In this document: one piece after another, positions 14,231 through 58,761 of the stretch | Position numbering within the stretch: the stretch's first letter is position 1 | Layout: each line of letters opens with the position of its first letter | Assembly (NCBI RefSeq): GCF_003852235.1 | Contig: NZ_CP027732.1 | Span: 2,232,001 to 2,296,000, forward strand | Origin: Pseudomonas sp. R4-35-07 | Lineage (GTDB): Bacteria > Pseudomonadota > Gammaproteobacteria > Pseudomonadales > Pseudomonadaceae | Direction: 5' to 3' | DNA: 64,000 nucleotides | Made by a program: the position numbers and the translations under genes | The notes under the pieces: model-generated | The model's input: the letters and a program-made list of their open reading frames with translations, nothing else | What the model was told of the DNA's origin: nothing | Databases searched by the model: none

Positions 14231-14621
14231 AAATTCCCACTTGTTCGATTCGTTAATTGATGAGCCAGGCAAGTACTAAACTATTTAAATTTCTCCAATA
14301 TTTCAGTAATAGAGTTAAGTCCATATGCTTGGCTGTGGCGAAGCAGCATTAAATTGTGTTTTGGGGCCTGGGTAGAGTATAAAATCGCATAGGTCAGTAA
14401 ATTCCGTCAGGTATTTTCTATTGTGTCAGCCAAAAAACTTAAAGTTGCATAAAGCGATTCAGCTAGCATTGCTCTTGCGTCTAGTTAAACCTCGGTTTTT
14501 AATACCTGCATGAATGATGCGTATGAATGAAATCATCCTTGAGGATGTGGGATTTCTAACGCGGTTCAATTTTTGAGTAGTGCCTTCGCTAAGAGTATGA
14601 GACGCTTCTCGATTCAGCAAG

Positions 14622-14650
14622 GAAATTTCTATATAGTGCATGGAGGTTTC
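14622..14650. promoter_or_regulatory. Two-box TTTC array (GAAATTTC type)
   Basis: The palindrome GAAATTTC (14622-14629) is followed by a second TTTC at 14647-14650, exactly 21 bp from the first TTTC (14626). It is a shorter version of the arrays upstream of invF, the hilA-like gene and the second fimbrial operon. It may serve the leftward coiled-coil gene, whose start is about 390 bp away, or assist the invF array. Confidence 0.45.
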
Positions 14651-14843
14651 TGTGGGCTCGCATGTTCATAGCAGCACAGGTCTGTGCATAATCACACTTT
14701 GGAAAATATGACATCTAACTCCTCGTAACATGTGTCCATTCTAATTTTTTATTCGTGTGCGGAAGGGGTGCGATTGTTCTATTGGTGGAATACGTCCGCT
14801 GCAGTTGCAGTTGTGATAACTGCTCCCCTGAGACGTCTGCGTT

Positions 14844-14893
14844 GAAATTTCTCATGGGGCAAGGGAAATTTCCGAAGCGATTATAGGGGTTTC
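14844..14893 (+). promoter_or_regulatory. Three-box TTTC array upstream of invF
   Basis: TTTC boxes lie at 14848, 14869 and 14890, each 21 bp from the next. The first two are inside GAAATTTC palindromes (14844-14851 and 14865-14872). Twenty-one bp is two helical turns, so bound dimers would lie on one face of the DNA. The same layout recurs at 34525 and 58605. I infer a binding site for the response regulator encoded in this island. Confidence 0.6.
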
Positions 14894-15212
14894 TCGATAG
14901 AGCGGCAGGTATTTGCATGCAATAATTAATGAGCTGGCCGATGGTGTATTGTTAACGTTGCTTATGGCCGCCGTCAGGAGCAACAAGGTGAAAGCTGCCT
15001 CTACGGTTAGAGAGCGGTCGAGCAATGATTTAGTAATCTCTTAATTATGTGTTCAGGTTCCCCGGGGAAGAATTGTTTCGTATCTTGCGGATGGGTGGGG
15101 GCAGGTTTCAGTGATGGACGAGCTGGGTAGATCATCATACTTTTTTGGTGCCATCATAATCTACTCAAGTTTTATTGCTGATTAATAAGTATGCTTATGT
15201 TTGCTTAGGTTG

Positions 15213-15992
15213 ATGGGTATCAATATGTCTATATATGAAGGTTCTTCCGTACGTACGGGAAGCTCATGGCCTACAGATTTCGCATCGGTCAAAGATGGGC
15301 TTTTTGCTTGGCGTTTGACTGTCGGGACTGAAGACATATCCCTAATCAATGTTTCATCTGAGGACGCATGCCAAGAGCACTACGATTTTTCCGCCGGGTG
15401 GCACGGCTTGCTGGTCGGCACCGGGTTTGAGGTGATTTGCGGTGCAGGCCATGTGCAGTCTGTGAGCCTCGCTACGTTGGCTCGATTGCAGTTGTTCATT
15501 GATCAGTCGGGAGTGCTGCCTGGCGAAGATGTAATTACATCGCAGTCGTTTAATTCTATTGCCCTGGAAATTACCAACTGGCAATCAGATATTGAGTCTT
15601 GGTACCTAGAGCAAGGTTGGTGTGCTTCGCACAGTTATTTGCGGTTGGCGGCCTACCTGCGCCGAACGGAGGCCTATGGGTTGGTCAGCTTTTTATGGGG
15701 TAGTGGCACCGGTGCCGAAAAGTTGCACAGTTTGGCCAAGCGTTATGGGGTGTCAGTGCCTCATTTTCGCCGCTTATGCCGTCGAGTTATTGGGAAAACC
15801 ACCAAAACCCAATTGCGTGATTGGCGTCTTGCCCGTGCATTAATGGATTTGACAGAAGGTAAACATACGCTTGTCGAGATTGCTTTGAATCACGGCTTTT
15901 CTTCTTCCGCACATTTTTCTCGGGAAATGAGTGAGCTGCTTGGGGTGTCACCGCGAGGCTTGTCTGATATCACCAAGTTGGCAGCTAAATGA
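15213..15992 (+). CDS. invF: AraC-family T3SS regulator (InvF/MxiE type)
   Basis: This 259-aa transcription factor has a C-terminal AraC DNA-binding domain. The two helix-turn-helix motifs fall around LHSLAKRYGVSVPHFRRLCR and LVEIALNHGFSSSAHFSREM. The N-terminal domain is weakly conserved, as in InvF. In SPI-1 systems InvF acts with the chaperone SicA to activate the translocator and effector genes; both proteins are encoded here. Its position as first gene before invG matches Salmonella. ATGs at 15213 and 15225 are both possible. The stop overlaps the invG start (ATGA), so translation is coupled. Confidence 0.85.
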   Translation: MGINMSIYEGSSVRTGSSWPTDFASVKDGLFAWRLTVGTEDISLINVSSEDACQEHYDFSAGWHGLLVGTGFEVICGAGHVQSVSLATLARLQLFIDQSGVLPGEDVITSQSFNSIALEITNWQSDIESWYLEQGWCASHSYLRLAAYLRRTEAYGLVSFLWGSGTGAEKLHSLAKRYGVSVPHFRRLCRRVIGKTTKTQLRDWRLARALMDLTEGKHTLVEIALNHGFSSSAHFSREMSELLGVSPRGLSDITKLAAK

Positions 15993-34524: not shown

Positions 34525-34594
34525 GAAATTTCTTGTGTCGTGCTGGATGTTTCCGGCGCTATTGTGGTCGTTTCTTATCCACCCGGCGCCTTTC
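34525..34594 (+). promoter_or_regulatory. Four-box TTTC array upstream of the hilA-like gene
   Basis: TTTC boxes begin at 34529, 34550, 34571 and 34591, with steps of 21, 21 and 20 bp. The first is inside GAAATTTC (34525-34532). Aligned with the invF array, the spacer positions also match at many bases. A possible -10 element, TATAGC, lies at 34605-34610, with the hilA-like start at 34667. This is the probable promoter of the hilA-like/iagB/prg/org block. Confidence 0.58.
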
Positions 34595-34666
34595 TTGCCT
34601 CTAGTATAGCTCCATCGATTTTGGGTAGTCGTTTTGGCGGCGCATTATACTGGCGAGGTTAGAAAA

Positions 34667-35278
34667 GTGACTGACATAGTTAATCCTTCTTTTACTGAAG
34701 ATGTGGCATTTGGAAAGTGGGTTTGGAGAAAAAACAGAGGTCTTTGGTTAGGCAGTGAGTGTGTGCATTTGCCTCCTAAAGAATCCAGGCTCCTTGAACT
34801 ATTGCTTGCCTCTGAGGGGCGGGAGCTGAGCAAGGATAGGTTGCTGGATAGTATCTGGCCACATCAGGCGGTGGGGGAGGAGTCTCTTAGCCGTTGTATT
34901 TATATCTTGCGCAAAATACTGCGCTCTTCAGATAGCAAAAGTTATATCGCAACCATCTATGGCAAAGGCTATCGGTTTGTTCGGCCTGTTATATCCATAC
35001 CTGAAACCACGCACTCGATCGCGATTGCGCACTCTGTGAAGTTAACCCCGAATGGTGCCAGTAGTGGTCGTTCAGATTCCGCTCACGCGCCGTCTAGTGT
35101 CACCGCACTTATCTGCGACACTCAAATGCTGGATGAGCTGGGTGGATTGCAGAACGGTCGACGTATGTGTTTAGAGCTGGTCAACCAATGCGGCACCTTG
35201 ACACTGCGCCGATTGAATCCCTCCGCTCCAGAGCCTATTGAACGGTTCACTTCTGGGGCGAGTCGGAGTGCTGCCTAA
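34667..35278 (+). CDS. HilA-like regulator without the TPR domain
   Basis: This 203-aa protein has an OmpR/ToxR-type winged-helix DNA-binding domain in residues about 10-105. The stretch EESLSRCIYILRKIL followed by YIATIYGKGYRFVRPV closely matches HilA. Salmonella HilA has 553 residues with a long C-terminal TPR/regulatory region. Here only about 90 residues follow, with no TPR pattern, so this is a naturally short form. The GTG at 34667 has GAGG eight bases upstream; a TTG at 34634 is possible. It likely activates the invF and prgH blocks, as HilA does, and lies first in the iagB-prg-org operon. Confidence 0.82.
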   Translation: MTDIVNPSFTEDVAFGKWVWRKNRGLWLGSECVHLPPKESRLLELLLASEGRELSKDRLLDSIWPHQAVGEESLSRCIYILRKILRSSDSKSYIATIYGKGYRFVRPVISIPETTHSIAIAHSVKLTPNGASSGRSDSAHAPSSVTALICDTQMLDELGGLQNGRRMCLELVNQCGTLTLRRLNPSAPEPIERFTSGASRSAA

Positions 35279-35426
35279 GCATGAGAATATATAAAAAAGT
35301 TGAACTTGCAGTCCATTCGAGCGCCGCACCATTGTCCGGTGGATCCAGGTTTTTTGAAGAGTGTCCTGTTTGTCTTGTCAGCCAAAGACGCCTGCGAGAG
35401 TCGGCCAGGTTCGCGGGGAGGCTGCT

Positions 35427-35882
35427 TTGACCCGATATCTCTTGGTCGGCCTGCTACTGTTGACAAGGCCTTCTTGGGCGGATGCTTTCTGCTGGGAACA
35501 GGTGGGAGCGTCCTACGATATTGAACCAGAGCTTCTTTTTGCTATAGCACAAGTCGAGTCTTCGCTGCGAACAGATGCGCTGAATCATAACCATGATGGT
35601 TCGCGGGATATTGGTTTAATGCAAATCAATAGTCGCCATCTACCGTGGCTCAGTGAGATGGGTATCGACGAAGGCCGACTATTAAATGACCCCTGCTTGA
35701 GCATCGCTGTGGGTGCCTCAATACTGAAAGAGTTTATTGGGCGCTTTGGCTATAGCTGGGAAGCTGTCGGCGCTTACAACGCTGGAGGTTCTGCTTCTAG
35801 GGCAACGTCACGGCAGCGTTATGCCAAGCGTGTCCAGGAGCGTTATCACATGATGCGCAGTGATTTGAATCTTGATGGATAA
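35427..35882 (+). CDS. iagB: Lytic transglycosylase (IagB)
   Basis: This 151-aa SLT-type muramidase opens the peptidoglycan for the needle complex. A signal peptide (MTRYLLVGLLLLTRPSWADA) is followed by FAIAQVESSLRTDALNHN with catalytic Glu44. Family motifs DIGLMQINSRHLPWL and AVGAYNAG follow. I chose the TTG at 35427 because GGGAGG lies just upstream and the signal peptide starts there. Position directly after the hilA-like gene is the same as in Salmonella. Confidence 0.92.
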   Translation: MTRYLLVGLLLLTRPSWADAFCWEQVGASYDIEPELLFAIAQVESSLRTDALNHNHDGSRDIGLMQINSRHLPWLSEMGIDEGRLLNDPCLSIAVGASILKEFIGRFGYSWEAVGAYNAGGSASRATSRQRYAKRVQERYHMMRSDLNLDG

Positions 35883-35964
35883 TACTTCTATCCATCAAGA
35901 TTTAATATCGAGTTGGCATTAATCTATGTCCATATCGCGCGATGTAAAACGGTGGAAGGGCAAT

Positions 35965-37134
35965 ATGTTGTTAGGCGAAAAAGAGCAAGGCACCACGAAC
36001 TTCGGTTGCGTGCTACGTGTTCTGGATGGGCCGCTGTGCGGCTGTGAGTATGAGTTGCGTGATAAACAAAACCTGTTCGTCGTCGGTATGGAAAGAGAAT
36101 TTTTCAACGATGAATCAGCCGTTTCCTTTCCTGAGCACTCATTTTATATACCGCTGGAGGGCAGTAGTAGTAATTTTGAAGTGCTTGTTGAAGAAACTGC
36201 ACAGTCTGGCGTCATGGTGCGTATATTCGGTGAGGAAGTAGTAGAGCGATCTTTAACTTATCAAGTCATTCACCGTGTAGGTAGTTTGCGTATTGCTTTA
36301 CGTCCGATGGATGCAGACTGGGTTGACGGTTTGTTTGACGAGCCTGCGCCCGAAACGTTTGCACGGACAATTTCTAATAGGCTCTCGGTGAAGAGCGTAA
36401 TAGCGATGCTACTAAGTGGCGTAGTATTGATCGCCTGCTTCTGGTGGGAAAGCCGGCCAACGCCAGTGGTGAGTGTGAAGTCTGTCGTTGGCGGGGTCAG
36501 CAGCCCTTACAGAATTATTAAAGGCCGCGATGACAAGATTTACATGTTTGCTTCAAGCGAGCGCGAGCTGAGCTGGGGGCGACAGGTCATGATGCGAAAC
36601 AATAGTACTGGCATCGATGTGAGGTCGATACGCGAGGAAGCAAAGCGTGTTGAAGGCGAGTTGCTTCGTCATTACACCGGTTTAGCATTCCATCGACTCG
36701 ATCTGAATAATCCTGAATTTCCCCGTCTGGTTCTGAGTAAGGAGCGTGCTCACTTAGACCTGGCCGCTGGCGAGGCGCTTAGGACTTTCTTGTTAAAGGA
36801 CATGCCTTATGTGCAGTCAGTAAAAATCGAGCGACGCAGCGACCTGGAGCTAGAGGCACTGGCAAAAGATGGTTTGCAGCGCTTGGCTGTTCCATTTGAA
36901 CGAATGCATCACCCGGCTGGCGTCACGTTTAAGGTTAGAGGTGCGTTGAATGACGGTGAACTAAATAACGTACGCGAGCTGGTTGAGTCGTTTTATCAGC
37001 AATGGGGAGGACGTTATGTTTCATTTGCGCTAGAACTCGATGACGATTGGTTGAAAGGCAAGTCCTATCAGCTAGGTTCACAAGGTTATATAAAAATGAG
37101 TCCGTCTTCTTGGTATTTTCCCGCACCGACTTAA
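35965..37134 (+). CDS. prgH: T3SS inner-membrane ring protein SctD (PrgH)
   Basis: This 389-aa protein (Salmonella PrgH 392) has a cytoplasmic FHA-like domain (FGCVLRVLDGPLCGCEYELR), one membrane segment (VIAMLLSGVVLIACFWW) and periplasmic ring domains. These end in a block very like PrgH: WGGRYVSFALELDDDWLKGK then GYIKMSPSSWYFPAPT. The ATG at 35965 is preferred because GGAAGG lies six bases upstream; an ATG at 35926 would add 13 residues. With PrgK it forms the inner-membrane rings. Confidence 0.93.
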   Translation: MLLGEKEQGTTNFGCVLRVLDGPLCGCEYELRDKQNLFVVGMEREFFNDESAVSFPEHSFYIPLEGSSSNFEVLVEETAQSGVMVRIFGEEVVERSLTYQVIHRVGSLRIALRPMDADWVDGLFDEPAPETFARTISNRLSVKSVIAMLLSGVVLIACFWWESRPTPVVSVKSVVGGVSSPYRIIKGRDDKIYMFASSERELSWGRQVMMRNNSTGIDVRSIREEAKRVEGELLRHYTGLAFHRLDLNNPEFPRLVLSKERAHLDLAAGEALRTFLLKDMPYVQSVKIERRSDLELEALAKDGLQRLAVPFERMHHPAGVTFKVRGALNDGELNNVRELVESFYQQWGGRYVSFALELDDDWLKGKSYQLGSQGYIKMSPSSWYFPAPT

Positions 37135-37154
37135 TAAATTTGAGGTAATAAAAC

Positions 37155-37418
37155 ATGGCAAACACTAATAGCCCTAAACCGGCAGCGCCTAGTGGCTGGT
37201 TGACCGAAGTTTCACAAGATTTCGATGAGTCGGTGACGGATCTTAAAAAGGAATTGGATGCTTCATTGGATAAGCTAAAGGGTGATGCTTCAGATCCCTC
37301 CCTACTTGCTGATTATCAAGCTCGGTTGTCGGAGTATAATTTGTTTCGTAACGCACAATCGAACACCGTAAAGGTATTCAAAGATATTGATGCTGCGATT
37401 ATTCAAAACTTCCGTTAG
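37155..37418 (+). CDS. prgI: T3SS needle subunit SctF (PrgI)
   Basis: This 87-aa needle protein is a helical hairpin with SGWLTEVSQDFDESVTDLKK, the conserved turn containing ASDPSLLADYQARLSEYNLF, and C-terminal DIDAAIIQNFR. Salmonella PrgI is 80 aa with the same ends. TGAGG lies before the ATG. It needs high expression; a GC-rich hairpin follows before prgJ. Confidence 0.94.
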   Translation: MANTNSPKPAAPSGWLTEVSQDFDESVTDLKKELDASLDKLKGDASDPSLLADYQARLSEYNLFRNAQSNTVKVFKDIDAAIIQNFR

Positions 37419-37451
37419 TGCTTAATTGATCTCCTTTTTTCACATCTTGGG

Positions 37452-37466
37452 GCCCCGTACCGGGGC
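37452..37466 (+). promoter_or_regulatory. Hairpin between prgI and prgJ
   Basis: GCCCCG, loop TAC and CGGGGC form a compact GC-rich hairpin in the 70-bp gap between prgI and prgJ, the only sizeable gap within this operon. It has no T run after it. It may protect prgI mRNA or reduce read-through, helping to set a high needle:inner-rod ratio. Confidence 0.4.
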
Positions 37467-37488
37467 TGGTTAAGTTTAGAGTGTATTT

Positions 37489-37791
37489 ATGTCCGGCTTA
37501 GAACTAATCGCTTCTCCTAGCGCACAGGTGAGCTTTTTAAACAACCCCGCCAGTGATGCGTCAGAATCTTTGGAGGGCCGGCTTATCCAGGCCTTTTCTG
37601 AAAAAAGCGTGGAAGCAGAACACTATGTATCCGCAATCAACTCAATTTTGTCGCGTCCGGGAATGCTCAGCGACCCAGAGGTTCTCTTCGAACTGCAACA
37701 GCAAACCGCGAATTATAATCTCGATATCTCCATGGTCAGTACACTTACACGTAAGGCCGTGGGGGCCGTTGAGGCATTGATGCGCTCATGA
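37489..37791 (+). CDS. prgJ: T3SS inner-rod protein SctI (PrgJ)
   Basis: This 100-aa protein, nearly identical in length to Salmonella PrgJ (101), ends in an amphipathic helix ([39 protein letters not shown]) that is typical of inner-rod proteins and needle-like subunits. It links the export gate to the needle. Its stop overlaps the prgK start (ATGA). Confidence 0.91.
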
Positions 37792-38513
37792 TGCTGCGGT
37801 GGCTATTACTCGGATTGGTGTTCTTGGGGTTGGTAGGCTGTCGTCAGGCGGATCTGCTGGACGGATTAGATCAGCACCAGATAAATGCTGTTATCGCTGT
37901 ACTGCAGCGTAACAATATTGAGGCGGTCAAAGTCGATCAGGGCAAGAATGGTTATAGCGTCCACGTCCGCCAGTTGGATTTTACCGCTGCAGTTGACTTG
38001 TTACAATTGCATGACCTGCCACCCAAGCCTCGGCTTGAGGTTGCACAAATGTTCCCACAGGATTCGCTGGTTGCTTCGCCCCGAGCAGAGAAAGCCAGAT
38101 TGTTCTCAGCCTTGGAGCAACGCCTGGAACAAACATTGGCCACACTGGAAAAGATTGTCCGGGCCAGGGTGCACGTCAGTTATGACCTAGATGCCGGGGA
38201 AGGAGGCCGTAAGGCTTCGCCCATACATCTTTCTGCCCTGATCGTGCATGAGCGGGGTGTAGACTCACAACTATTGATCGGTGATATCAAGCGGTTTTTG
38301 AAAAACAGTTTTTCGGATGTCAGTTACGACGATATTTCAGTTGTGCTTTCACCTAAAAGCGAAATTCAGCACTTTGCGCCTTCAGCGGCACCCACGAATC
38401 ATAATAAGAATTACCTGCTGGGCGGTCTGATTCTGATGGTCTTATTAGGCGGCCTATCGAGTGCTTATTGGTATTGGTCAGTAAAGCGGCGCCAAACTAA
38501 GGCGGACCTATGA
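37788..38513 (+). CDS. prgK: T3SS inner-membrane ring lipoprotein SctJ (PrgK)
   Basis: This 241-aa YscJ/PrgK-family lipoprotein has a lipobox [12 protein letters not shown] with the acylated Cys near residue 18. The ring-building motif [20 protein letters not shown] follows, then a second domain ([16 protein letters not shown]) and a C-terminal membrane helix ([19 protein letters not shown]). Salmonella PrgK is 252 aa. It overlaps prgJ and orgA. Confidence 0.94.
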
Positions 38514-39073
38514 TGGATTTTGCCCCGCGGTTGAGACATATCATGTTTGATCCTTTGGCCTACCTACATCCAAGTCGTCTGAGCAGGACAATCAATCTTA
38601 GTTCTGCGCGGCAACGGAGCGCGCTTAATGGGATTTTTCTTGACGCACTACCCAATGCGATGCCGGCTACGCCGGAGGTTGATTCTGTGTATGCGCATTG
38701 GGTGAGATATTGGCACCGCCTGCCTCATATTGCTCTGGCTCTGGGGGCGCAGCAATTGCGTCAATACCTGGCGCAAGGAGGGACTTGGTTATGCCTGCCT
38801 GAGCAAGCCCAGGCCTTCGCAGCCTATAAGCTTCGTGAAGCCCGCGAAGAGGAAAAAACGTCTTTGGTGTCTGTGGCCCAAGTCCAGGCATGTGGGCTTT
38901 CCGCATTGCTGGCGTGGAGAGAGTGGGTGCCTGAGGCACTGGTAGCACGGCTGCCGCTACTCTTCCCTGAGAAAATAGTCGAGCTGCAGGGAACCCAGCC
39001 GATACCTTCTGCTGATCTATTAATTTTTAAATTGGCTCTACAAAATGATCAGAATTATTCCCATTCACGATAA
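38510..39073 (+). CDS. orgA: T3SS sorting-platform protein SctK (OrgA)
   Basis: This 187-aa cytoplasmic protein has the position and length of OrgA (199 aa in Salmonella), which links PrgH to the SpaO pods. The family is variable; recognisable features are [13 protein letters not shown] near the N-terminus and the repeated Leu/Ala helices. It overlaps prgK by four bases and orgB by 29. Confidence 0.87.
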
Positions 39074-39746
39074 CCTTCTGATTGAGGATAGCGTCTGGGT
39101 CGCCTCAGTGCATCTGCAGAAGCAAACGCAGGCCGTCGACATTCTTGACCAGGCGATTGCTCAAGCCAATAGCCGTATCCACGCGGCTCAGTGCGAAGCG
39201 GATGCAATTCATCAGCATGCTTTTCGCCAAGGGTATGACAAGGGCGTCTGCGTCCTGGCGCAAGATGTCGTGCATGCAGTGGGCCAAGCAAGTGCTCTTC
39301 AGAAGCGTCTAGAGGTGATCTTGCATCGTACTGCTGTTGATTTAGTCGCGGACTTGCTGGGCCGGCCTGAGTGTTTGGAGGCCATGTTTGCCAGATGGCT
39401 GAAAGAGAGCAGAGCCGACGCCAGCTCGGACCAAGCTATGACCGTGGTATTGCCTCAACGCTTGGATGCGTGTGGTGAGGAGTTTGTGGCTCGTCTACGC
39501 TTGCATTGGAGTGGCACAATGAATGTCGAATTCGTCGACGGGGAATATTACCGATTTCGTTGTGACCAACAATTTGCCGAGCTGAATGGTCGGGCTATCG
39601 GCGAAGAACTGGCCCCGGAATTGATGGTGAAATTAGGCCTATTGACGGAGCAGTGCGGGCGGATTTCTGGCGAGGTCCGGTCTGCTATTTTGCGGTTTAC
39701 CGGGTTGGATGAGTCGATTTGTTTGAATAAAGGGATCATGGAATGA
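39045..39746 (+). CDS. orgB: T3SS stator protein SctL (OrgB)
   Basis: This 233-aa FliH/OrgB-family protein regulates and anchors the ATPase InvC. The N-terminal part (QTQAVDILDQAIAQANSRIH, AAQCEADAIHQHAFRQGYDK) is a coiled coil with the small-residue spacing typical of the family. The C-terminal domain resembles the F1 delta subunit. Length fits OrgB (226 aa). It overlaps orgA and orgC. Confidence 0.9.
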   Translation: MIRIIPIHDNLLIEDSVWVASVHLQKQTQAVDILDQAIAQANSRIHAAQCEADAIHQHAFRQGYDKGVCVLAQDVVHAVGQASALQKRLEVILHRTAVDLVADLLGRPECLEAMFARWLKESRADASSDQAMTVVLPQRLDACGEEFVARLRLHWSGTMNVEFVDGEYYRFRCDQQFAELNGRAIGEELAPELMVKLGLLTEQCGRISGEVRSAILRFTGLDESICLNKGIME

Positions 39747-40168
39747 ACATTGGTGCCATTCGCCCCGCTGGTAGCCAAGCCGTGCTCGCCGCTCAAGAAG
39801 CGATCCTTGATCTGGATCAGCGTGTGCTTGAAGTTGGTGCGCTATCCAAAACCTCTTTGGATGATCCTAATTTCGAAGCGTTCTACCAGAGGTTATTGGC
39901 TATAGCAGACGATGGTTTGAGCGGCGCAACAGTTTATGAGTGCTTACGCGCGTTTGAGGCTGATGGAGCGCATCCTTATCGCACCACTGAAACCCAGGCT
40001 GCAGTTTTGGCCTTGACCCTGCAGCGCCTAAAAGAGGATAGTCTTCAAGATACAGCGCTATATAAGAGTGTCACAGAGGCTCAATCTCGTGTTTTTTCGG
40101 CGAAATTTATGGTTCAGGAATATATGCAGCAAATATTCATGGTGGCTGAAGAGCTGCCCGAATGGTGA
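39743..40168 (+). CDS. orgC: T3SS protein OrgC
   Basis: This 141-aa soluble helical protein has the length and position of OrgC (about 150 aa in Salmonella), which promotes polymerisation of the needle protein PrgI. The family is weakly conserved, so the name rests on order and size. It is translationally coupled to orgB. An 86-bp gap follows before the response-regulator gene. Confidence 0.78.
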   Translation: MNIGAIRPAGSQAVLAAQEAILDLDQRVLEVGALSKTSLDDPNFEAFYQRLLAIADDGLSGATVYECLRAFEADGAHPYRTTETQAAVLALTLQRLKEDSLQDTALYKSVTEAQSRVFSAKFMVQEYMQQIFMVAEELPEW

Positions 40169-40254: not shown

Positions 40255-40881
40255 GTGGGAAAAATACTGATTGTTGATGATCATCCGATACTACGATTAG
40301 CTGTTCGTTTGTTGTTGGAGCGTGACGGGCACGAGGTGGTGGGGGAGGCGGACAATGGGGTCGATGGTGTCAGTTTAGCTCGAGAGCTGAATCCTGGCCT
40401 GGTGCTGCTTGATATAGGTATTCCGAACCTCGATGGGTTGGAGGTAATCGCTCGTATCCAGACATTGGCAACGCCGCCAAAAGTCCTGGTACTAAGTGCA
40501 CAGGAACCTGCTTACCTTGCCCACAGGTGCATGCGGGCTGGGGCTGCCGGTTTTGTGTTTAAGCAGGAGGATCCAGCGGAGCTACTCGCTGGTGTGCGTG
40601 CAGTGTTGTCGGGCTACAGTTTTTTTCCTAGCCAAACGCTCAATGACGTTCGCAATGACGCAGGGAAATCTGACGAGGCTACATTGCTAAGTACGCTGAC
40701 CGATCGAGAGCTCACCGTTCTTCGTTATCTGGCGTTGGGATACACGAATAAACAAATAGCTGATGAGTTACTGATCAGCAACAAAACGATCAGCTCTTAT
40801 AAAATACGCTTGCTTGAAAAATTGAACGCCTCTAGCCTTGTAAGCTTGGCTGAACTGGCGAAAAGAAATTCACTGGTATGA
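40255..40881 (+). CDS. LuxR/NarL-type response regulator (BvgA/EvgA-like)
   Basis: This 208-aa protein has an N-terminal receiver (IVDDHPILRLAVRLLLERDG, phosphoacceptor Asp in LVLLDIGIPNLDGLEV, Lys in GFVFKQED). Its C-terminal LuxR-type DNA-binding domain is LTDRELTVLRYLALGYTNKQ then SNKTISSYKIRLLEKLNA. All key receiver residues are present. The architecture and size equal BvgA/EvgA, partners of BvgS/EvgS kinases, and such a kinase is encoded 2.4 kb away. A GTG start with AGGTG upstream is used. It is the likely protein that binds the TTTC arrays, although that link is inferred. Confidence 0.9.
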   Translation: MGKILIVDDHPILRLAVRLLLERDGHEVVGEADNGVDGVSLARELNPGLVLLDIGIPNLDGLEVIARIQTLATPPKVLVLSAQEPAYLAHRCMRAGAAGFVFKQEDPAELLAGVRAVLSGYSFFPSQTLNDVRNDAGKSDEATLLSTLTDRELTVLRYLALGYTNKQIADELLISNKTISSYKIRLLEKLNASSLVSLAELAKRNSLV

Positions 40882-43269: not shown

Positions 43270-46200
43270 CTACTCAAAGTGTTTTTTTCTCTGGCGAATC
43301 AGATCGCGTTCTAATCCTACCATTGCCTGATCAAGGGCTAGGACCACGGCCGGTAAATTAGAATCTGACGGGTCAAGGTGACAGGAAGCTTCCAAAGCTT
43401 CACAGTGCTTGATCAGACTGCGAACCTTAACAACGCGAGCACTGCCCTTGATTTTATGAGCAAGCTCGGATAAGCCACGCAGATTGTCGTTTTTATTAAG
43501 CCGTCGTAATTCCTCTAAATCATCGGTGATACTATTAATTAATCCATCCAGCACACGCTTTAATATGTTGAGGTCTCCACCGGTAAGGTGCTCAAGGGTA
43601 TTCAAGTCAAATTTATTGGATTCAGAATAATTAATTTCGTCATGAATGGCTATTGCGGAGCGTTTGATGAAACGCTCTAAGGTATCCAGCTCCACTGGTT
43701 TAAATAGGCAGTCATCCATGCCAGCCGATATGCACCGCTCGCGCTCCTCACGTTGAGCATTAGCAGTAAATCCTAAAATGATAGAGCGCACCCGGTTTTG
43801 AGCGCTCTCAATCACGCGTATTGCTTTCGCAAGCTCATATCCGCTCATCACTGGCATATTGCAGTCGGTAATGATGACGTCAAATATTTTCTGTTTCCAT
43901 AATGCAAGGCCTTCAGCACCATTTTCAGCAAGATGCACGGAGTGCCCCAAGTATATTAGCTGTTCACTCAACAGCAATCGATTGGCGTAGTTGTCGTCAA
44001 CCACTAATACACCTAAAATTGGAGCCGGGTTGGCTGCGGAGCTGTTTAATACTTCGGCCTTCTTTTCCTGCCGTGGTTCGAGCACGTTCAGTGTCAGTCG
44101 GCCAATGGCTTGTGTGCCCTGATCGATTTCGCTGTCGAGCTCCAATTGGCCTCCCATCATTTCACATAGATTACGGGAAATCATTAATCCTAATCCTGTA
44201 CCAGAGCGGGCGTGCTGTCTCGTTCCACCTATCTGGGTAAATGGCTGGAATAAGCGCGCTATATCGTTAGCAGATATACCAATACCGGTGTCATTGACCG
44301 AAAATTCGACCTGTAATTGATCATCTGCTAATAAGCAAGAATGAACAACCACATCGACCCCGCCGTTTTCGGTAAACTTAATCGCATTACTGATTAAGTT
44401 GGAAAGTACTTGTTTAAAGCGCAGCGGGTCAACCAATACGTCGTAATTTATACTTTCGTTAATGTCTAACTTTAGAGTTAGGTTCTTTTGCTTGGCCAGT
44501 CCACTGAATACTCGAATAACAGATTCTACTAGGTCCTTTAGGTTGGCCCGCTCTTGATTCAGACTAAGGTGACCTGTCTCTATACGGGCAATGTCGAGTA
44601 TATCACCAATTAAATCAAGCAAGCCGCGGGCGGAATGATAGGCGACTTCTATTGATGAGCGGTCATATTTTTCTTTATCGCGTTTCAAGCTTAATTCCAG
44701 CAATCCTATGATCGCATTCATAGGTGTTCTGATTTCATGGCTCATAGTCGCAAGGAATGTAGTTTTGGTCCGATTAGCCTCATCAGCATCATTTTTGGCT
44801 TGTTTGAGCTCCTCCAGAAGCAAGTGCCGCTCAGTTATATCTATCCAACCTCCGATTAAGCCTTGATTGGCACCTTCAGAGTTAGAGAAAGGTAGCATCC
44901 AGTGATAGATAGTTTGATGACGTCCAGCAATGTAAACTTCTCGATCACGCAAAAGAGGTTGGCCTGTCTGCAATACAGTTTGGCAATCCTTTTCATAGGC
45001 CGCCGACCTTTCCAATGAGGTTTTTGCTGAACTTAAACCACGAGCAATATCACCCTCGTTTGAAAGCGATTTTACGTAACTGTCATTGCAAATTAATAGG
45101 CGATTTTCTAAATCCCGCACGTAAATTGGATGCGGCGTGCCGTTTATCAGGGCTTCCATAAAGTGAAGCTGATTGCTGAGTTCTCTTTCGGCTGCTCTGC
45201 GTTGCATGATTTGCCGACGTAAGTAAATTCCCCAACCCAATGCGATAGTCAATAGTGTGATAGTGCTAACTACGGATTTAAATATAATCTGACGATAGTC
45301 GCGCCATGATGGGGGCGCAATAACTGCGTTTGTGCGCCACCGGTTGGTAACAGAATCAATAACATCTGGCGGGATGCTTCTTATGGTTTTATCGAGAATT
45401 GCGTAAAGCTGACCTTGCCCCTTAAGTACACTGAGCGACGCTGTCGCAGGTGCAGAGTTTATAATCGATGCAATTTTCAGTGAGTTATCGCGGCTACGCA
45501 AATTGTAGCTGGCAATAGGTGCAGGTAGGATTGTTGCATCTACTGAGCCATCCTCTACCCAAGCAAGGGCCTCAAAATTATTCTCTGCGTTCTTTAAACG
45601 AATGAGCGGGTAATGTTCGCGTAACATCGGCAGAAGCGCATGGCCTGGCGCAACGCTTAACGTCCTGCCTGCCAGAGCCTCCAGCGTATCTGGGTATGCA
45701 CTTTGATTGCGTACTACAAGTGCATAAGGTGCGATTAAATAAGGACGTCCAAATAAAAAAGATTGCATGTTTTCCTGGTTTTTAGGCAGGTCCGTTGCGA
45801 TTTGCACTCTTCCCGCTTTTAAGCTTTCCTGCATTTCTCTAATGTTGGGGTGAGGTTGTATGTTGAATTTTAAGCCCGTTTTTCTCTCAATTAACTTAAG
45901 CAAGTCTCGTGTAATACCAAAATAATTACCATGGATGTCGAAATATGAAACGGGTGCCAGGTACCGGCTCACTGCTATATTTACCACAGGGTTTTTCTTG
46001 ATCCAATCTTTCTCGTCTGCACTTAAATCCAGTGGCTGGAGCGTGAATAAGAGTTTTTCGCTCCAGCGTGTTTGTATTTCAGTTTTTACCTGTTCTGGCA
46101 CGGCCCCTAGGGCGGTATTGATAAGGTTCAGCAAACGCGGGTTATCAGCGTTAATGGCAAAGCTGAAGCCTTCTTGTGCCGGGGGGGCGATATCCAAAAT

Positions 46201-46947
46201 ATCGAGATGGCTGGAATAATTTCGCGAAATAAGGTATTGAGAGGATATAGCATCCCCTAAAAATGCATCAGCTTGTCCAAAGGCGACTGCCGCGATAGCA
46301 TTTTCTGTCGATGTGAACACTTCTATGTTTGCTTGAGGAAACATCCGCCGAGCCGCAGCCTCACTAATATAGTCGGAGTCAATTGCCAAGCGAATACGCG
46401 CGACTTTATCGTCGAAAGACAGGCTAATGCCTATGCGGCCGATTAGAGCGAGTCGATCATCGAGGTAGTTGTTGCTCAGTGCCAAATCTATTCTATTTTT
46501 TTCTCTTCGATTAGCGCTGCCCAATAAATCTATTTCGCCAGTTTTCAGTGCTTCCACGGCTTCCATATGAGTAGCGTAACGGCGAACGTCCACGGTTACA
46601 CCAAGATAACCAGAAATTATCTGCATGTAATCTGCTGTGATACCCTCATAGTCACGATTGGAACTTGATATGTCCAACGGCGGATAATCAGGAAGCGACG
46701 TACCCAGTACCAAAGTCTTCTTTTTCTTTAGCCAGCGCCAACCGTTGTAGTCTAAATTTAACTTCTGGTGATCTTCATTGGTGTGGCTGAAGAGTTCTAA
46801 ATTGTCCACACGACTAGCATGGGCTTCTGGCCCGGCGAATAGCGCGATCCAAAGCGCCGCACAGATATTGAGCGACAGCGTCTTCCTGAATATGTATTTT
46901 GGTGTTGGTTTTTTTTTAATTTGCACGCTTAGGTGAATCGATTTCAT
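43270..46947 (-). CDS. BvgS/EvgS-type hybrid sensor histidine kinase
   Basis: This 1,225-aa unorthodox kinase starts with a signal peptide or N-terminal anchor ending GPEAHA. Two tandem periplasmic Venus-flytrap (SBP_bac_3) domains cover about 60-290 and 300-535. A membrane segment (SVVSTITLLTIALGWGIYL) and a PAS domain (about 590-710) follow. The HisKA motif is ATMSHEIRTPMNAI with His737, followed by the ATPase domain (GTGLGLMISRNL). The receiver (VIITDCNMPVMSG) has Asp1028, and the C-terminal HPt domain (LAHKIKGSA) has His1164. All phosphorelay residues are intact. The order equals Bordetella BvgS (1,238 aa) and E. coli EvgS. The likely partner is the LuxR-type regulator at 40255, by analogy with YsrS/YsrR of the Ysa T3SS. 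Confidence 0.93.
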   Translation of the reverse strand: MKSIHLSVQIKKKPTPKYIFRKTLSLNICAALWIALFAGPEAHASRVDNLELFSHTNEDHQKLNLDYNGWRWLKKKKTLVLGTSLPDYPPLDISSSNRDYEGITADYMQIISGYLGVTVDVRRYATHMEAVEALKTGEIDLLGSANRREKNRIDLALSNNYLDDRLALIGRIGISLSFDDKVARIRLAIDSDYISEAAARRMFPQANIEVFTSTENAIAAVAFGQADAFLGDAISSQYLISRNYSSHLDILDIAPPAQEGFSFAINADNPRLLNLINTALGAVPEQVKTEIQTRWSEKLLFTLQPLDLSADEKDWIKKNPVVNIAVSRYLAPVSYFDIHGNYFGITRDLLKLIERKTGLKFNIQPHPNIREMQESLKAGRVQIATDLPKNQENMQSFLFGRPYLIAPYALVVRNQSAYPDTLEALAGRTLSVAPGHALLPMLREHYPLIRLKNAENNFEALAWVEDGSVDATILPAPIASYNLRSRDNSLKIASIINSAPATASLSVLKGQGQLYAILDKTIRSIPPDVIDSVTNRWRTNAVIAPPSWRDYRQIIFKSVVSTITLLTIALGWGIYLRRQIMQRRAAERELSNQLHFMEALINGTPHPIYVRDLENRLLICNDSYVKSLSNEGDIARGLSSAKTSLERSAAYEKDCQTVLQTGQPLLRDREVYIAGRHQTIYHWMLPFSNSEGANQGLIGGWIDITERHLLLEELKQAKNDADEANRTKTTFLATMSHEIRTPMNAIIGLLELSLKRDKEKYDRSSIEVAYHSARGLLDLIGDILDIARIETGHLSLNQERANLKDLVESVIRVFSGLAKQKNLTLKLDINESINYDVLVDPLRFKQVLSNLISNAIKFTENGGVDVVVHSCLLADDQLQVEFSVNDTGIGISANDIARLFQPFTQIGGTRQHARSGTGLGLMISRNLCEMMGGQLELDSEIDQGTQAIGRLTLNVLEPRQEKKAEVLNSSAANPAPILGVLVVDDNYANRLLLSEQLIYLGHSVHLAENGAEGLALWKQKIFDVIITDCNMPVMSGYELAKAIRVIESAQNRVRSIILGFTANAQREERERCISAGMDDCLFKPVELDTLERFIKRSAIAIHDEINYSESNKFDLNTLEHLTGGDLNILKRVLDGLINSITDDLEELRRLNKNDNLRGLSELAHKIKGSARVVKVRSLIKHCEALEASCHLDPSDSNLPAVVLALDQAMVGLERDLIRQRKKHFE

Positions 46948-49102: not shown

Positions 49103-49838
49103 GATTCGTTTCAATCATTGATTTGTAGGATCTCGCACTGTTTCGTAAGCAGTGCGAGCTGGTTTTGTTGCGGGTGGTACTAAGGATAACGAAGAGTCCG
49201 TAATACATCGGAGGTTTGGCTTAAAATAGCATCCGCTTATAGCGAGATATAAAAGTGGCGCCGAATTCCAAACGTCATACAGTTGCAGAGTTTGTATCGG
49301 TAGTTATTGTCATACCGCAATAGCTGCATGTGTAACTGGTTATCGAACCATAAAGGGCAAAAAATAGTTTTTTTTCGTGCAGAATCTCAGAGGTAAGAAA
49401 GTTCCTCGTCCGACGAGGAAGATTCTTGCCGCTGCATTGAGCGGTCTGATGTTGTGGTGCATCTCGATGTGAAAAAATTATAGACAGTTGGAACGAGCCC
49501 GTAGGCTAAAAGTGTGATCCAACCTATTTCTCATCGTGACTGCGTGGTTGTCCCTAACTTTGCCGCCGGAGCAGGTCTGGTTCCGGTTGGAGTAAAGCGT
49601 CGGGTAGCTCCCATGTGCCTTCCAGTCATTTAGTGCGTTCTTTAAGGGCATAAAGGAGCAATGCCTGTTTAAAAAGGCGCCCTGAATAATTCAGTAAGAA
49701 AATTTACTGTTGATATCTGCCGTTAGTAGTGAGAGAGCACATCAAGCATGTTTTACGAGAGCAATATTATGTGTTGCGATGATATGTTAAGGCTCGGCGA
49801 TTTTGAGTTTTATAATGGTACATTAAAAGAGGTTTGTT
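49103..49838. other. Intergenic region with terminator, hairpin and AT-rich promoter zone
   Basis: No gene is supported in this stretch. It starts with a terminator (separate entry), contains a second hairpin with arms TCCTCGT and ACGAGGA near 49404-49422, and becomes AT-rich before the adhesin gene. An open frame from 49748 overlapping the adhesin start has no ribosome site. The promoter of the adhesin gene is presumably in the last 200 bp. Confidence 0.5.
49132..49168 (+). terminator. Terminator after the metalloprotease gene
   Basis: CTCGCACTG (49132-49140) and CAGTGCGAG (49150-49158) form a perfect 9-bp stem with a nine-base loop, followed by CTGGTTTTGTT. It is 29 bp after the metalloprotease stop and would end the hydrolase-protease transcript. 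Confidence 0.75.
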
Positions 49839-52025: not shown

Positions 52026-52512
52026 AGAACGTCAAATAGTGATGGTTGTAGTTTGGTTTTCCGTATTTTGGCGTGAGAAAGTTTAGAGTTGCAATTTTCA
52101 GGTGTTTTAGGCCTTACAGGTGCGCTCAGTGGACCTTAGTATTGGGCTTGATACTAAATATACAATTTATGTAGGGGGCTTAATTTCAAAAAACGCTCTC
52201 AGGGTCTACGCATTTAGGGCCGGCACCGGTCGCCGGCTACCAGGCAATGTGGCCTACAAAACCTTAGAAGCCAGAGCAATTCGGACGGAGAGGGCATGCA
52301 GATTTTGGTGGGGAGCTAGAAGCAATTCATCCCGCTCCGAGAAAATTCTGGTCTAGGGCGAGCGAATTCTGACTTGAAATGAGAGCGTGCTGATGTGACG
52401 GGCTTACGGCCGAGTTTAAGATTTTCTGCCCTGTCAGGTATCGCAGCACCTAAATATCTGAAGGCTAAAAAACTCAGTTTATTCTAACTTGGCTATTGCG
52501 AGACCCGCATAA
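52026..52512. other. Region before the first chaperone-usher operon
   Basis: The rightward frame at 52120-52356 has no recognised domain or ribosome site and is not supported. The segment contains the AT-rich promoter zone of the fimbrial operon. No TTTC array like those at 14.8, 34.5 and 58.6 kb is present. Confidence 0.45.
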
Positions 52513-53046
52513 ATGAACTTCAAAGTGTTTTCTGTTGCTGTCTGTTTTGTCAGCCTAAATCTGCCCGTCCTTGCTCTCGCCGCCCAGACTGGACAGATCA
52601 ACATCACTGGCAGAATTATCGAAACGAGTTGCGTACTTGATGCTTCTTCCACCAATGTCAACGTTGTACTGCCGACCGTGGACAAAAGTCAGCTCGCTGG
52701 CGCTCAGAGCGCTACCGGTCGTACCGGCTTCACGCTGCAGGTGACCGACTGCCCGGAGGATGCCAAGGTTTCTGCTGCATTTCTGCCTGATTCCAATGTT
52801 AATCCCTACGGCAACTTGGTAAACAACGCTGTAAACAAAGCCTCCAACGTCGAGGTTCAACTGCTCGATCAAAATCATACCGTCATCAATATCAATACCG
52901 ATGACAATGCTTCCCAGGCTTCACGTGCCGTGGATATCAACGGAAAAGGCAGCTTGCAGTACTTCGCGCAGTACTTCTCCCAAGAGGGGAGCGCGGGTGG
53001 CGGTGATGTTTCCGTCATGGCCAATTTCATGCTGACCTACGAGTAA
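52513..53046 (+). CDS. Fimbrial major subunit (type 1 family)
   Basis: This 177-aa pilin has a signal peptide (FSVAVCFVSLNLPVLALAA) and a mature part that starts like type 1 pilins: GQINITGRIIETSCVLDASS. The paired Cys (SCV and DCP) form the usual disulfide, and the C-terminal penultimate-Tyr motif FMLTYE binds the chaperone. It is probably the shaft subunit of the first locus, followed by its chaperone (48 bp) and usher. Confidence 0.9.
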   Translation: MNFKVFSVAVCFVSLNLPVLALAAQTGQINITGRIIETSCVLDASSTNVNVVLPTVDKSQLAGAQSATGRTGFTLQVTDCPEDAKVSAAFLPDSNVNPYGNLVNNAVNKASNVEVQLLDQNHTVININTDDNASQASRAVDINGKGSLQYFAQYFSQEGSAGGGDVSVMANFMLTYE

Positions 53047-53094
53047 TCGACTCGCCCGGGGTGTTCACCTCGGGCACCACTGAGGTACCCCCTG

Positions 53095-53838
53095 ATGTCA
53101 CCTGTCTCCGCTCGACACTTGCCCTCTTTGATGGCAGGGCTGTTCCTTGCTGCATGCTCGATGTCCAGTGCTGTTGCCGGTGTCATGATCGATGGCACCC
53201 GTGTGATCTATTCCGCGAAGGAACGAGAAGTCACCGTAAAGCTGACCAACAAGGGCCAGAGCCCCGGGCTCCTGCAAGTCTGGATTGATCGTGGCGACGC
53301 CCAGAGCCGACTTCAAGATGCAGACGCGCCCTTTCTCGTTACGCCACCCATTTTCAGGTTGGACCCACAAAAAGGCCAGAGTGTACGCATTGTGTTCACC
53401 GGTGAAACGCTGCCTCAGGACAGGGAAAGCTTGTTTTGGTTCAACGCCCTGGAAATCCCACCTATTCCTCAAGGTGCCAGTGCTGGGGCGAACATGATGC
53501 AAATCGCTGTGCGTTCACGCCTGAAGATGTTCTATCGCCCGGTCGCTCTGTCCGGCGATGTTCGTAGCTCCGTGAGTCGGATGAAGTGGTCTGTGCAGCG
53601 AGTCGATAAGGGCTATGTCCTGCGCGGTGATAACCCGACGCCTTATCACCTGTCGTTTGGTGAGCTGTCAGTGAAGCAGGGCGACAAACGCTACGAAACC
53701 GGCGGCGGCATGATTGCTCCCTTCAGTCAGCAGGATTTTTCTCTCGCCGGTCATACCGGCAGTACTGGTGGCCAGGTGCTCTACCGCTGGATCGGTGATT
53801 TTGGCACCACCGCCGAACAGAGCATCACACTGAACTGA
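53095..53838 (+). CDS. Periplasmic fimbrial chaperone (PapD family)
   Basis: This 247-aa two-Ig-domain chaperone has a signal peptide ending SAVAGVMIDGTR. The first beta strand (GVMIDGTRVIYSAKEREVTV) is followed by the family signature ESLFWFNALEIPP and the conserved basic residues (RSRLKMFYRP) that hold the subunit C-terminus. It works with the usher encoded 58 bp downstream. Confidence 0.92.
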   Translation: MSPVSARHLPSLMAGLFLAACSMSSAVAGVMIDGTRVIYSAKEREVTVKLTNKGQSPGLLQVWIDRGDAQSRLQDADAPFLVTPPIFRLDPQKGQSVRIVFTGETLPQDRESLFWFNALEIPPIPQGASAGANMMQIAVRSRLKMFYRPVALSGDVRSSVSRMKWSVQRVDKGYVLRGDNPTPYHLSFGELSVKQGDKRYETGGGMIAPFSQQDFSLAGHTGSTGGQVLYRWIGDFGTTAEQSITLN

Positions 53839-53896
53839 AATTGACGAGCTGATGTGCCGACAGGTATCACCTCGATACGCGTGCTCAGGTAATCCC

Positions 53897-56494: not shown

Positions 56495-56522
56495 TGGCTA
56501 CCGTTGAACTATAAGGTTAAAT

Positions 56523-57467
56523 ATGAGTCGCTGTCTGCTTGTTTTCTATTTCGTCAATTTCCAAGGCCGATGTCGGCATCCCGCTCACAGCGCAATTTTT
56601 GCACGGGATAAGGCGATTGGTTCTACCACTAACTGGAAAGAAAACACAAACTCTCAGCGCGTAGGGATGCTATGCCAGTACATGGGCGGGCGTAATGTCG
56701 GCATAGTGAATGGCACGCTTGTATCTGGATACTCAGATGCCTATCAGCCCAGTAATCCCGGTATAGGTATCCGTTTCAGAGCAACTACTTGGTATTCAGC
56801 TTCACAGCAAAGAGCGCTTCCATTTGATATTCCTGGGAATGGGCCCTCCGACTGCTAACCTTGCGTCACCATAATAAAAAATATGAGGGCTTCTGCACAG
56901 CTCGTCGTGGTGGGGCAGGTCTGTGCAGGCATTATTATGTCATTTCCAACCGCCCGCATCAGCTATTATGATTCTTAAGAGAGGGGGCCAATGAACGTGA
57001 AAATCAGCACGTTTCCAAGTATTATAGAAGCATCGTCCTGTAACGTAGATGGCGACATTATTGCCACAATGCCCAGGATTGAAATAAATCGACTCCCAAG
57101 CGTCGGAGCGGTCGCTGAAAGGACGCCTTTCACTATTGGAATGAATTGCGATTCTTCGATTGCTGTTCATATGGTCATCACTGATGCACTTAATCCGGGT
57201 AACATTGGGAATGTGCTGACGCTCAGTTCCGACTCGGAGGCAATGGGTGTGGGGTATCAGATTCTACGCGACAACAGCCCGATCAATTTCGGTCATGCCT
57301 CGTCTATTGCGGGCGCTTTAAATCAATTCAAGATTGTAAGTTCTACAGGTGGCACCGGGGGCCGGTTCCTGATTCCGTTTGATATCCAATATCAACGAAC
57401 GGCGTCTTCGAGGCCGAAAACAGGCACGGCCAATGCCGTTGCGGTGTTTACCATGTCTTATCAGTAG
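56523..57467 (+). pseudogene. Fimbrial adhesin, duplicate copy with two nonsense codons
   Basis: One continuous frame codes for a protein very similar to the adhesin at 57563 (VGSTTNWKASTGSQG-type block, NPGIGVRFRAT, NIGMNCD, GYQILRDNSPINFG, FTMSYQ). TAA codons interrupt it after SDC (56856-56858), where the intact copy has Lys (SCK), and again before ERGPMNVKIS, where the intact copy has VKRGVMDIKIS. The signal-peptide region is also diverged. A short peptide restarting at the ATG at 56991 could be made but would lack the binding domain. It is the dead partner of a tandem duplication. Confidence 0.88.
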
Positions 57468-57562
57468 TATTCAAATCGCACAATTAAGCGTCAGTACTGT
57501 GCGGTGAAAAGGAATGAATTGACTGAAGTTTCGCTCTAGCGAGGCAAAACCTAAAAGGTTGA

Positions 57563-58516
57563 ATGATGAATCTTTATATACTCCCGCTGGTATTTTTGGG
57601 GGCTTTCTCGTCTCTATCAATTGCCGCTGTAAATATTCCCCTCGATAGCGCTGTTTTCGCGCGCGATAGGGAAGTCGGCTCGACCACCAACTGGAAAGCC
57701 AGTACTGGTTCTCAGGGCGTATGGGCGAAGTGTTCATACGAGGTGCGCAGCATAGGAACGGTTAATGGCCCTCTTGTTCCAGGCTTTTCGGATGTTTATC
57801 AGACTAATAATCCTGGCATTGGCGTGCGTTTTCGGGCGACGTCGTGGGATGCAGTTTCAGTACAGCGTACTCTTCCGTTCGATGTTTCTGGTGTTGGAGC
57901 TAGCTGTAAACCCAATCAGGATGTATTAAAACACATGAAAGCGACTGCGCAACTCGTGATAGTCGGCCCCGTCAGCTCTGGAACGATAACTGCATTTCCG
58001 TCCGCCAATGTGACCTATATTGATAAGGTTAAGAGAGGCGTAATGGATATCAAGATTAGCACTGCTCCAACCATAAAGGCGTCGACCTGTGATGTTGATG
58101 GCAATATTGATGTCAAGATGCCAAACATTGGGCTAAATCGCCTTCTGGAAGTTGGATCGGTTGCCGGCAGAACGCCTTTTAATATTGGAATGAATTGCGA
58201 TCCTTCGATTTCTGTTCATATGGTTATGACCGACGCACAGAACCCGGGAAACACTAGCAATGTGCTGTCGCTCAGTCCCGGCTCGGATGCAACGGGTGTA
58301 GGGTATCAAATTTTACGCGACAACAGCCCAATCAATTTAGGTCCTGCCTCGTCTATCGCGGGCGCTTTAAATCAATTCAAGGTTTTAAGTTCCACAGGCA
58401 GCGCCGGAGGTAGGTATCTCATTCCGTTTTATATTCAATATCAACGCACAGCGTCTTCCAAACCGGGATCCGGTACGGCCAATGCAAATGCAGTGTTCAC
58501 GATGTCTTATCAGTAG
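57563..58516 (+). CDS. Fimbrial tip adhesin (two-domain)
   Basis: This 317-aa secreted protein has a signal peptide (LYILPLVFLGAFSSLSIAA). The N-terminal putative lectin domain is at about 25-145 (RDREVGSTTNWKASTGSQGV, NNPGIGVRFRATSWDAV, FDVSGVGASCK). The C-terminal pilin domain runs from about 165 (MDIKISTAPTIKASTCDVDG) to FTMSYQ. It is a tandem paralogue of the damaged copy directly upstream and the last gene of the first chaperone-usher locus. The ligand is unknown. Confidence 0.85.
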   Translation: MMNLYILPLVFLGAFSSLSIAAVNIPLDSAVFARDREVGSTTNWKASTGSQGVWAKCSYEVRSIGTVNGPLVPGFSDVYQTNNPGIGVRFRATSWDAVSVQRTLPFDVSGVGASCKPNQDVLKHMKATAQLVIVGPVSSGTITAFPSANVTYIDKVKRGVMDIKISTAPTIKASTCDVDGNIDVKMPNIGLNRLLEVGSVAGRTPFNIGMNCDPSISVHMVMTDAQNPGNTSNVLSLSPGSDATGVGYQILRDNSPINLGPASSIAGALNQFKVLSSTGSAGGRYLIPFYIQYQRTASSKPGSGTANANAVFTMSYQ

Positions 58517-58674: not shown

Positions 58675-58761
58675 GCGTGTAAAAATTTACATGCTGGCCG
58701 GCTGGATGCGGATAACGCTATTTGGTTGATATCAGTCTTATTGGATGCGAGGATCGAAGCT

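Follow-up and report, generated by a model that had tools for sequence, protein, structure and literature searches.

The window analysed here, a 64,000-nt stretch of the Pseudomonas sp. R4-35-07 genome, carries an island of the SPI-1 type, with invF, a secretin, a gatekeeper, sicA, translocators, a HilA-type gene, prgH, a needle gene, a YscJ-type gene and orgA, together with chaperone/usher fimbrial clusters, a two-component regulator and a hybrid kinase (Table 1). The match of the hilA-like gene to the NCBIfam HilA/EilA model falls below the model cut-off. The genes at 35361–40168 may form one operon that runs from array B, described below, through regulator 40255; because the hilA-to-org genes and 40255 are tightly spaced on one strand, array B may also drive 40255. 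A terminator-like hairpin lies at 37451–37467, and such sites number 5 on both strands of the region, versus 6.9 in shuffles. Two island proteins of 493 and 563 aa (40994–42475 and 32428–34119), encoded beside type III secretion system (T3SS) genes and having no Pfam match, are possibly secreted.

Table 1. Island genes, arrays and predicted core promoter elements, in window coordinates.
Feature	Position	Strand	Remarks
Array D	14601..14651	.	20/23 template positions; placed at 14605; 243 bp ahead of array A
Array A	14844..14894	+	boxes at 14848, 14869, 14890; GAAA/TTTC dyads at the first two; upstream of invF
Predicted −10 of array A, AATAAT	14921..14926	+	offset 31 from third box
invF, AraC-type activator	15225..15992	+	ATG at 15225 (searches used 15228 onwards); putative target of array A
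Array B	34525..34575	+	boxes at 34529, 34550, 34571; upstream of hilA-like gene 34634
Predicted −10 of array B, TAGTAT	34602..34607	+	offset 31 from third box
hilA-like gene	34634..35278	+	214-aa frame; HilA-type DNA-binding domain; putative target of array B
Transglycosylase (iagB-like), prgH, needle gene (37155–37418), YscJ/FliF-type, orgA and neighbours	35361..40168	+	closely spaced
BvgA-type response regulator	40255..40881	+	208 aa; receiver and LuxR/GerE HTH; proposed binder of the arrays
BvgS/EvgS-type hybrid kinase	43270..46947	-	1225 aa; proposed partner of 40255
Array F	49397..49447	+	weakest, 18/23; box at 49401; before fimbrial gene 49839
Candidate −10 of array F, AAAAAT	49473..49478	+	
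Array E	52341..52391	+	weaker, 19/23; box at 52345; before fimbrial operon 52513
Candidate −10 of array E, TAAGAT	52417..52422	+	counted from degenerate third box
First chaperone/usher fimbrial cluster	52513..58516	+	
Array C	58605..58655	+	boxes at 58609, 58630, 58651; upstream of chaperone/usher fimbrial operon 58726
Predicted −10 of array C, AAAAAT	58681..58686	+	offset 30 from third box
Second chaperone/usher fimbrial cluster	58726..62783	+	

An earlier note on this DNA had described three TTTC boxes with an exact 21-bp period upstream of invF, two of them inside palindromes, and the same layout at two further operons of the window. We reproduced each of these points: the palindromes are two copies of GAAATTTC, at 14844 and 14865, and the further triples precede the hilA-like gene and the second fimbrial operon. 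Scanning the window for chains of three TTTC boxes at periods 10–39, we found three at period 21, one at 25, one at 38 and none at the remaining 27 periods; with a chance expectation of around 0.02 per period, the 21-bp triples are far above chance. The 5.84-Mb genome holds eight period-21 triples, versus one in the reversed control. Three of the eight are arrays A–C, and the other five, two of which overlap, lie within open frames of at least 364 codons.

Beyond TTTC, the arrays share a Y after each box and RG three bases ahead of the second and third boxes, giving a 23-position template of GAAATTTCY, RG, TTTCY, RG and TTTCY at fixed places. At up to three mismatches, this template matches the genome six times and the reversed control not at all; five matches are in the window (A, B, C, D and C offset by one unit) and the sixth sits within a 340-codon frame. 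Many unrelated genome-wide matches, which the earlier note had named as an argument against an operator, thus did not appear. When a dyad matrix built from two arrays was used to recover the third genome-wide, the left-out arrays A, B and C scored 29.3, 20.5 and 25.7 and ranked 3, 9 and 3, with the arrays used for training, shifted or reverse copies of these, and D ranking higher. The best scores of 30 shuffles under the full matrix ranged from 7.8 to 20.3, so array B is recovered only narrowly.

Arrays A–F are all non-genic, in a region (12170–63044) of which a crude gene list leaves 15.7% non-genic. By matrix score, E lies above 28 of the 30 shuffles and F within the null. Array D may serve the reverse-strand gene at 13091–14272 or be a second invF promoter; of its flanks, viewed in either orientation, the right holds a sigma-70-like match at 14665–14692 and the left AAAAAT at offset 30. 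The gene at 13091–14272 encodes a 393-aa protein without a Pfam or NCBIfam match, for which two relatives were found, one 99% identical and the other a P. chlororaphis hypothetical protein (48%).

The island also encodes BvgA-like and BvgS-like proteins, as the earlier note had stated. Regulator 40255 is identical to Bordetella BvgA at 122 of 206 residues (59%), and its domains and length, its BvgA kinship and the presence of a hybrid kinase with SBP_bac_3, receiver and Hpt domains place it among the BvgA/EvgA/RocA-type regulators; the NCBIfam FimZ and EvgA models match it below their cut-offs. Residues K177, T178, S180, Y182, K183 and R185 of the recognition helix are invariant in 14 aligned sequences. 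Kinase 43270, the presumed partner of 40255, comprises SBP_bac_3, weak PAS_4, HisKA, HATPase, receiver and Hpt domains. The nearest relatives of 40255 (P0035 and P0036) are 97% and 70% identical; the best other matches listed from 398 genomes of the genus reach 61–62%, and among 144 relatives at E ≤ 1e-82 none is closer. Its own genome contains four BvgA-like regulators at E ≤ 1e-40, of which the three chromosomal ones are 61, 54 and 49% identical. The identity of 40255 to BvgA and to a core orphan regulator of the genus (59–61%) exceeds that to the RocA-like regulators found beside arrays elsewhere (44–50%).

Those RocA-like regulators came from the same 398 Pseudomonas genomes, in which the template at up to two mismatches has 15 matches in 14 other genomes, versus 3 for the reversed control. 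We examined 10 of the 14 non-own array neighbourhoods. Four of them have a BvgA/RocA-like regulator with a kinase some 2 kb from the array and show no match to invF or hilA in the 16–18 kb viewed. An usher is present in three of these four Roc-like loci; a REC-EAL gene follows the array (identified by Pfam in L030 and L035, the two loci so analysed), and L032 has a second array upstream of a YadA-anchor adhesin. The probability of finding a regulator within 3.5 kb at 4 of 14 sites by chance is about 2e-6, assuming six such regulators per genome and with four of the sites viewed over 3 kb only. The other six neighbourhoods have no such regulator, the nearest approach being a 32% receiver-type match in L037. 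Arrays L037 and L039 lie within frames, L034 is flanked by DUF1120 genes with an usher gene nearby, and L033, L036 and L038 have no evident link.

The distance from array to core promoter is shared as well. Summed over A, B and C at offsets 15–59 from the third box, the match to TATAAT reaches at least 10/18 at offset 31 alone, and the Roc-like arrays have GAGAAT, GAGAAT, AATAAT, CACAAT and AACAAT at offset 30. TATAAT-like hexamers thus lie 30–31 bp past the third box in A, B, C, L030, L031, L032 and L035. None of 5,000 shuffles equalled the summed −10 match of these seven promoters, which are not seven independent cases because L030 and L031 are closely related. The arrays of L033, L034 and L036 have no −10 hexamer at offset 30. 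Array A has no consensus sigma-70 promoter; the sole match in 14273–15230 lies at D.

Between the predicted −10 and the gene, the leaders of A (14927–15224) and F (49479–49838) are about 300 nt or longer, and D, if it faces left, would have a leader of that size at 14273–14568. An RNA element in the invF leader was considered and rejected, with no Rfam match at E ≤ 1 in 14200–15300, a segment that covers A and D.

Passages of PMC7250471 describe BvgA dimers bound head-to-head 22 bp apart, the last abutting the −35, at promoters with a poor −35. As in the BvgA promoters of Bordetella (fha, ptx and fim), the island promoters have tandem dimer-type sites two helical turns apart (period 21 in A–C), the last of them at a constant distance from the adjoining core promoter (predicted −10 at 30–31), and a poor −35. 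Unlike the Bordetella promoters, they have a period of 21 rather than 22 bp and half-sites of TTTCY rather than the TTTCCTA heptad given in the part of PMC4314077 consulted; other bases follow TTTCY, and the box nearest to the heptad is TTTCTTA, the third of array B. Since the half-site is not TTTCCTA, the operator counts by sequence as a variant within the BvgA heptad class known from the literature; low-affinity BvgA sites without TTTCCTA are also described in the available text of PMC7250471.

The array is probably the activator-binding part of a BvgA-type promoter, with 40255 as the most likely binder. Four lines of evidence argue for this: first, a regulator 59% identical to BvgA; second, a BvgS/EvgS-type kinase in the island; third, arrays beside BvgA/RocA-like regulators at loci without T3SS genes; and fourth, the common −10 distance. 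On these grounds the operator class that the earlier note had proposed is well supported by comparison of sequences. We infer that phosphorylated dimers of 40255, rather than of a chromosomal paralogue, would bind tandem dyads RGAAA/TTTCY spaced 21 bp apart along one DNA face and activate transcription by recruiting RNA polymerase to a promoter that has a −10 and no recognisable −35. With a start assumed about 7 bp after the −10, the dimers would be centred near −85, −64 and −43. Because one promoter type lies ahead of invF, the hilA-like gene and the fimbrial operons, kinase 43270 would switch on secretion and adhesion together, and the island most likely forms a regulon for secretion and adhesion that its own BvgA/BvgS-like pair controls, 'regulon' standing here for what the promoters predict.

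We then compare the island with its homologues. invF was found in 41 of the 398 genomes (40 besides its own), and 29 other invF loci from those 40 genomes contain no array (best score 9.4, with shuffles reaching 11.1). Six other SPI-1 islands were viewed over 60 kb: in five, invF and hilA are present and no BvgA-like regulator was found, and the sixth shows no hilA within that span and a distant regulator match that is split in two. Template scores in these islands peak once at 20/23, inside a coding frame (L197); single matches, even near an SPI-1 island, can therefore be chance. The conservation in homologous islands on which the earlier note had staked its proposal is accordingly missing at invF, but a 22-bp version of the TTTCCTA type appears at hilA.

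This version was seen in the five hilA-bearing islands, which have TCCTAC-type half-sites and TATAGT upstream of hilA, and it recurs in Pseudomonas hilA promoters, where TTTCCTA-type half-sites follow one another at about 22 bp and TATAGT stands near +30. Genes of the hilA family are present in 109 of the 398 genomes; our sample comprised 30 loci (L201–L230) and 20 hand-picked stretches (L231–L250). A half-site/−10 model trained on the island and Roc-like arrays, without hilA sequences and with spacings and −10 offsets fixed after viewing five hilA promoters, placed 15 of the 30 hilA loci above 95% of the null and 9 above 99%. Among the 25 promoters not previously seen, the counts were 13 and 7; by the same model, 1 of 29 invF regions exceeded 95%. 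Each of the 30 loci has a single CTATAGT or CTATTGT within its upstream 400 bp.

A later rule, requiring at least 10 of 15 points for three TCCTA half-sites at 21–22 bp and a −10 at 29–31, passes 42 of 50 hilA-type promoters and 0 to 0.6% of shuffles, a description rather than a held-out test because the rule postdates sight of L201–L230 and ten of the promoters in L231–L250. By class, it passes 20/22 full-length SPI-1 hilA promoters, 5/8 further SPI-1 hilA promoters, 5/8 short forms (one at a site other than its TATAGT) and 12/12 core genes that encode the DNA-binding domain only. Ten of these twelve (L232–L235 and L237–L242), of which the motif positions alone had been seen beforehand, all pass. 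Over 98 other loci (3.87 Mb, both strands), background sites occur at a rate of 0.0012 per 350 bp; of the nine that score at least 11, four are the hilA promoters of the islands themselves. Many hilA promoters have one poor half-site out of three, which in the core genes is the middle one; L246 and L247 reach a score of 6, and L248 is without such a −10. Against an average identity of 46% among the 22 full-length promoters in this region, the half-sites and −10 are conspicuous as a footprint, and given how common this footprint is, BvgA-type control of hilA may be general. Under the same rule, the best score in the window is 9/15, the island half-sites lacking the TCCTA shared by BvgA sites and the hilA promoters.

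Upstream of the small HilA-like genes of L231–L242, which encode the DNA-binding domain only, the third half-site (TTTCCTA or close) and TATAGT lie 30 bp apart in 12 of 12 cases; in the island's own genome (G000:C1:4230569-4230859) such a gene lies far from the T3SS island. Five hilA-like loci (L226–L230) at most about 1.1 kb from an invF match have their own TCCTAC/TATAGT promoter.

The binder at these hilA promoters is likely, from their sequences, to be the core BvgA-like regulator, a relative of which (E ≤ 1e-65) is present in 333 of the 398 genomes and in all 41 that have invF. A GTRGG pair at 22 bp lies upstream of the regulator's own gene in 65 of 80 loci, versus 13 of 80 for the next-best spacing, and TGTAGGA, the form of the dyads there, is TCCTACA on the opposite strand. 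The island template finds no strong array at these 80 loci (best 19/23).

Such a regulator raises the question of whether the island arrays, while of BvgA type, are bound by one of the three chromosomal BvgA-like regulators instead of 40255. This is unlikely, although it is the alternative with most in its favour. The four BvgA-like regulators of the genome could compete for the same sites, every invF genome has a core relative, and in the five islands with BvgA-type half-sites at hilA and no local regulator within 60 kb, a chromosomal regulator would have to serve. Against it, gene 40255 lies within the island, and the island half-sites are unlike the core TCCTA sites, as expected if a dedicated regulator had changed together with them.

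The remaining alternatives fare far worse. The arrays might be sites of the HilA-like OmpR-type protein 34634, with the 21-bp period representing two direct repeats: B precedes the hilA-like gene, A precedes invF, and HilA raises expression of T3SS structural genes in P. fluorescens 2P24, according to the excerpted text of PMC8490769. We consider this very improbable. An array serving HilA or InvF should precede invF wherever this gene and hilA are both present, yet it does so at none of the 29 invF loci, despite hilA being present in five of the six islands, and arrays do stand beside BvgA/RocA-like regulators with no hilA or invF match within 16–18 kb. Binding by the AraC-type InvF itself, suggested by the position of A just upstream of invF, has even less to recommend it: the same two observations oppose it, and the 2P24 InvF site reported in the passages of PMC8490769 consulted has a different sequence. 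Direct HilA or InvF operators were thus rejected on co-occurrence, by the Roc-like loci (4 of 10), the invF loci (0 of 29) and the islands. Hardly more credible is the notion that A and C, which share 38 of 51 bases and are therefore possibly copies of one promoter, are a repeat element or a product of recombination with no regulatory meaning, since B is less alike (34 bases shared with A, 28 with C) yet in the same register, no further non-coding copy exists in the genome at up to three mismatches, and the layout and −10 recur at other loci.

Returning to the BvgA-type reading with 40255 as the probable binder, the described systems closest to it are the Bordetella promoters and, within Pseudomonas, the Roc systems. 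Like Bordetella Bvg, the island pair would control both virulence and fimbrial targets; unlike Bordetella, these are an SPI-1 type T3SS and chaperone/usher clusters. With Roc (RocS/RocA/RocR and cup fimbriae), in which RocA1 controls cupC according to the part of PMC12051241 available, the island shares the array and −10 distance of the four Roc-like loci, a hybrid kinase and adhesion targets; it differs in having its regulator inside a T3SS island, with hilA and invF added as targets. The gene content (invF, hilA and inv/spa/prg/org genes) is that of the SPI-1 islands of plant-associated Pseudomonas, described in 2P24 and F113, and the hilA-bearing islands compared here have BvgA-type half-sites and TATAGT before hilA. 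Unlike the five hilA-bearing islands, this one has an invF array and a BvgA-like regulator, and among the SPI-1 islands compared it alone combines kinase, regulator and fimbriae.

The described Pseudomonas SPI-1 islands keep HilA and InvF, and the literature consulted, seen in part, does not name the activator of hilA; the excerpted text of the 2P24 paper makes no mention of HilC or HilD (PMC8490769). A three-site promoter with a fixed −10 points to a regulator class for hilA. Among the literature matches listed, judged by title and start of abstract, none concerned BvgA-type control of hilA or invF, and we found no paper that joins BvgA, invF, SPI-1, Pseudomonas and type III secretion; as far as these matches go, the SPI-1 link, the island arrays and the hilA footprint are new.

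A broader account, which we offer tentatively and at somewhat less than even chances, is that BvgA-type regulators are a general hilA switch in Pseudomonas, the core regulator acting at most SPI-1 islands, and that this island captured a pair of its own whose half-site has shifted (to TTTCY at 21 bp) and whose operator spread to invF and the fimbrial operons to make a private secretion-plus-adhesion regulon. If true, Bordetella logic, in which one two-component system governs secretion and adhesion, would be tied to SPI-1 secretion in Pseudomonas, and the island would exemplify an operator set that diverged in step with a regulator acquired by capture. As for the core regulator itself, its gene lies next to argG and is preceded, about −136 from its start, by TGTAGGA-type dyads 22 bp apart (L040–L119; 75 of 80 loci in the loose form), an arrangement that probably reflects autoregulation.
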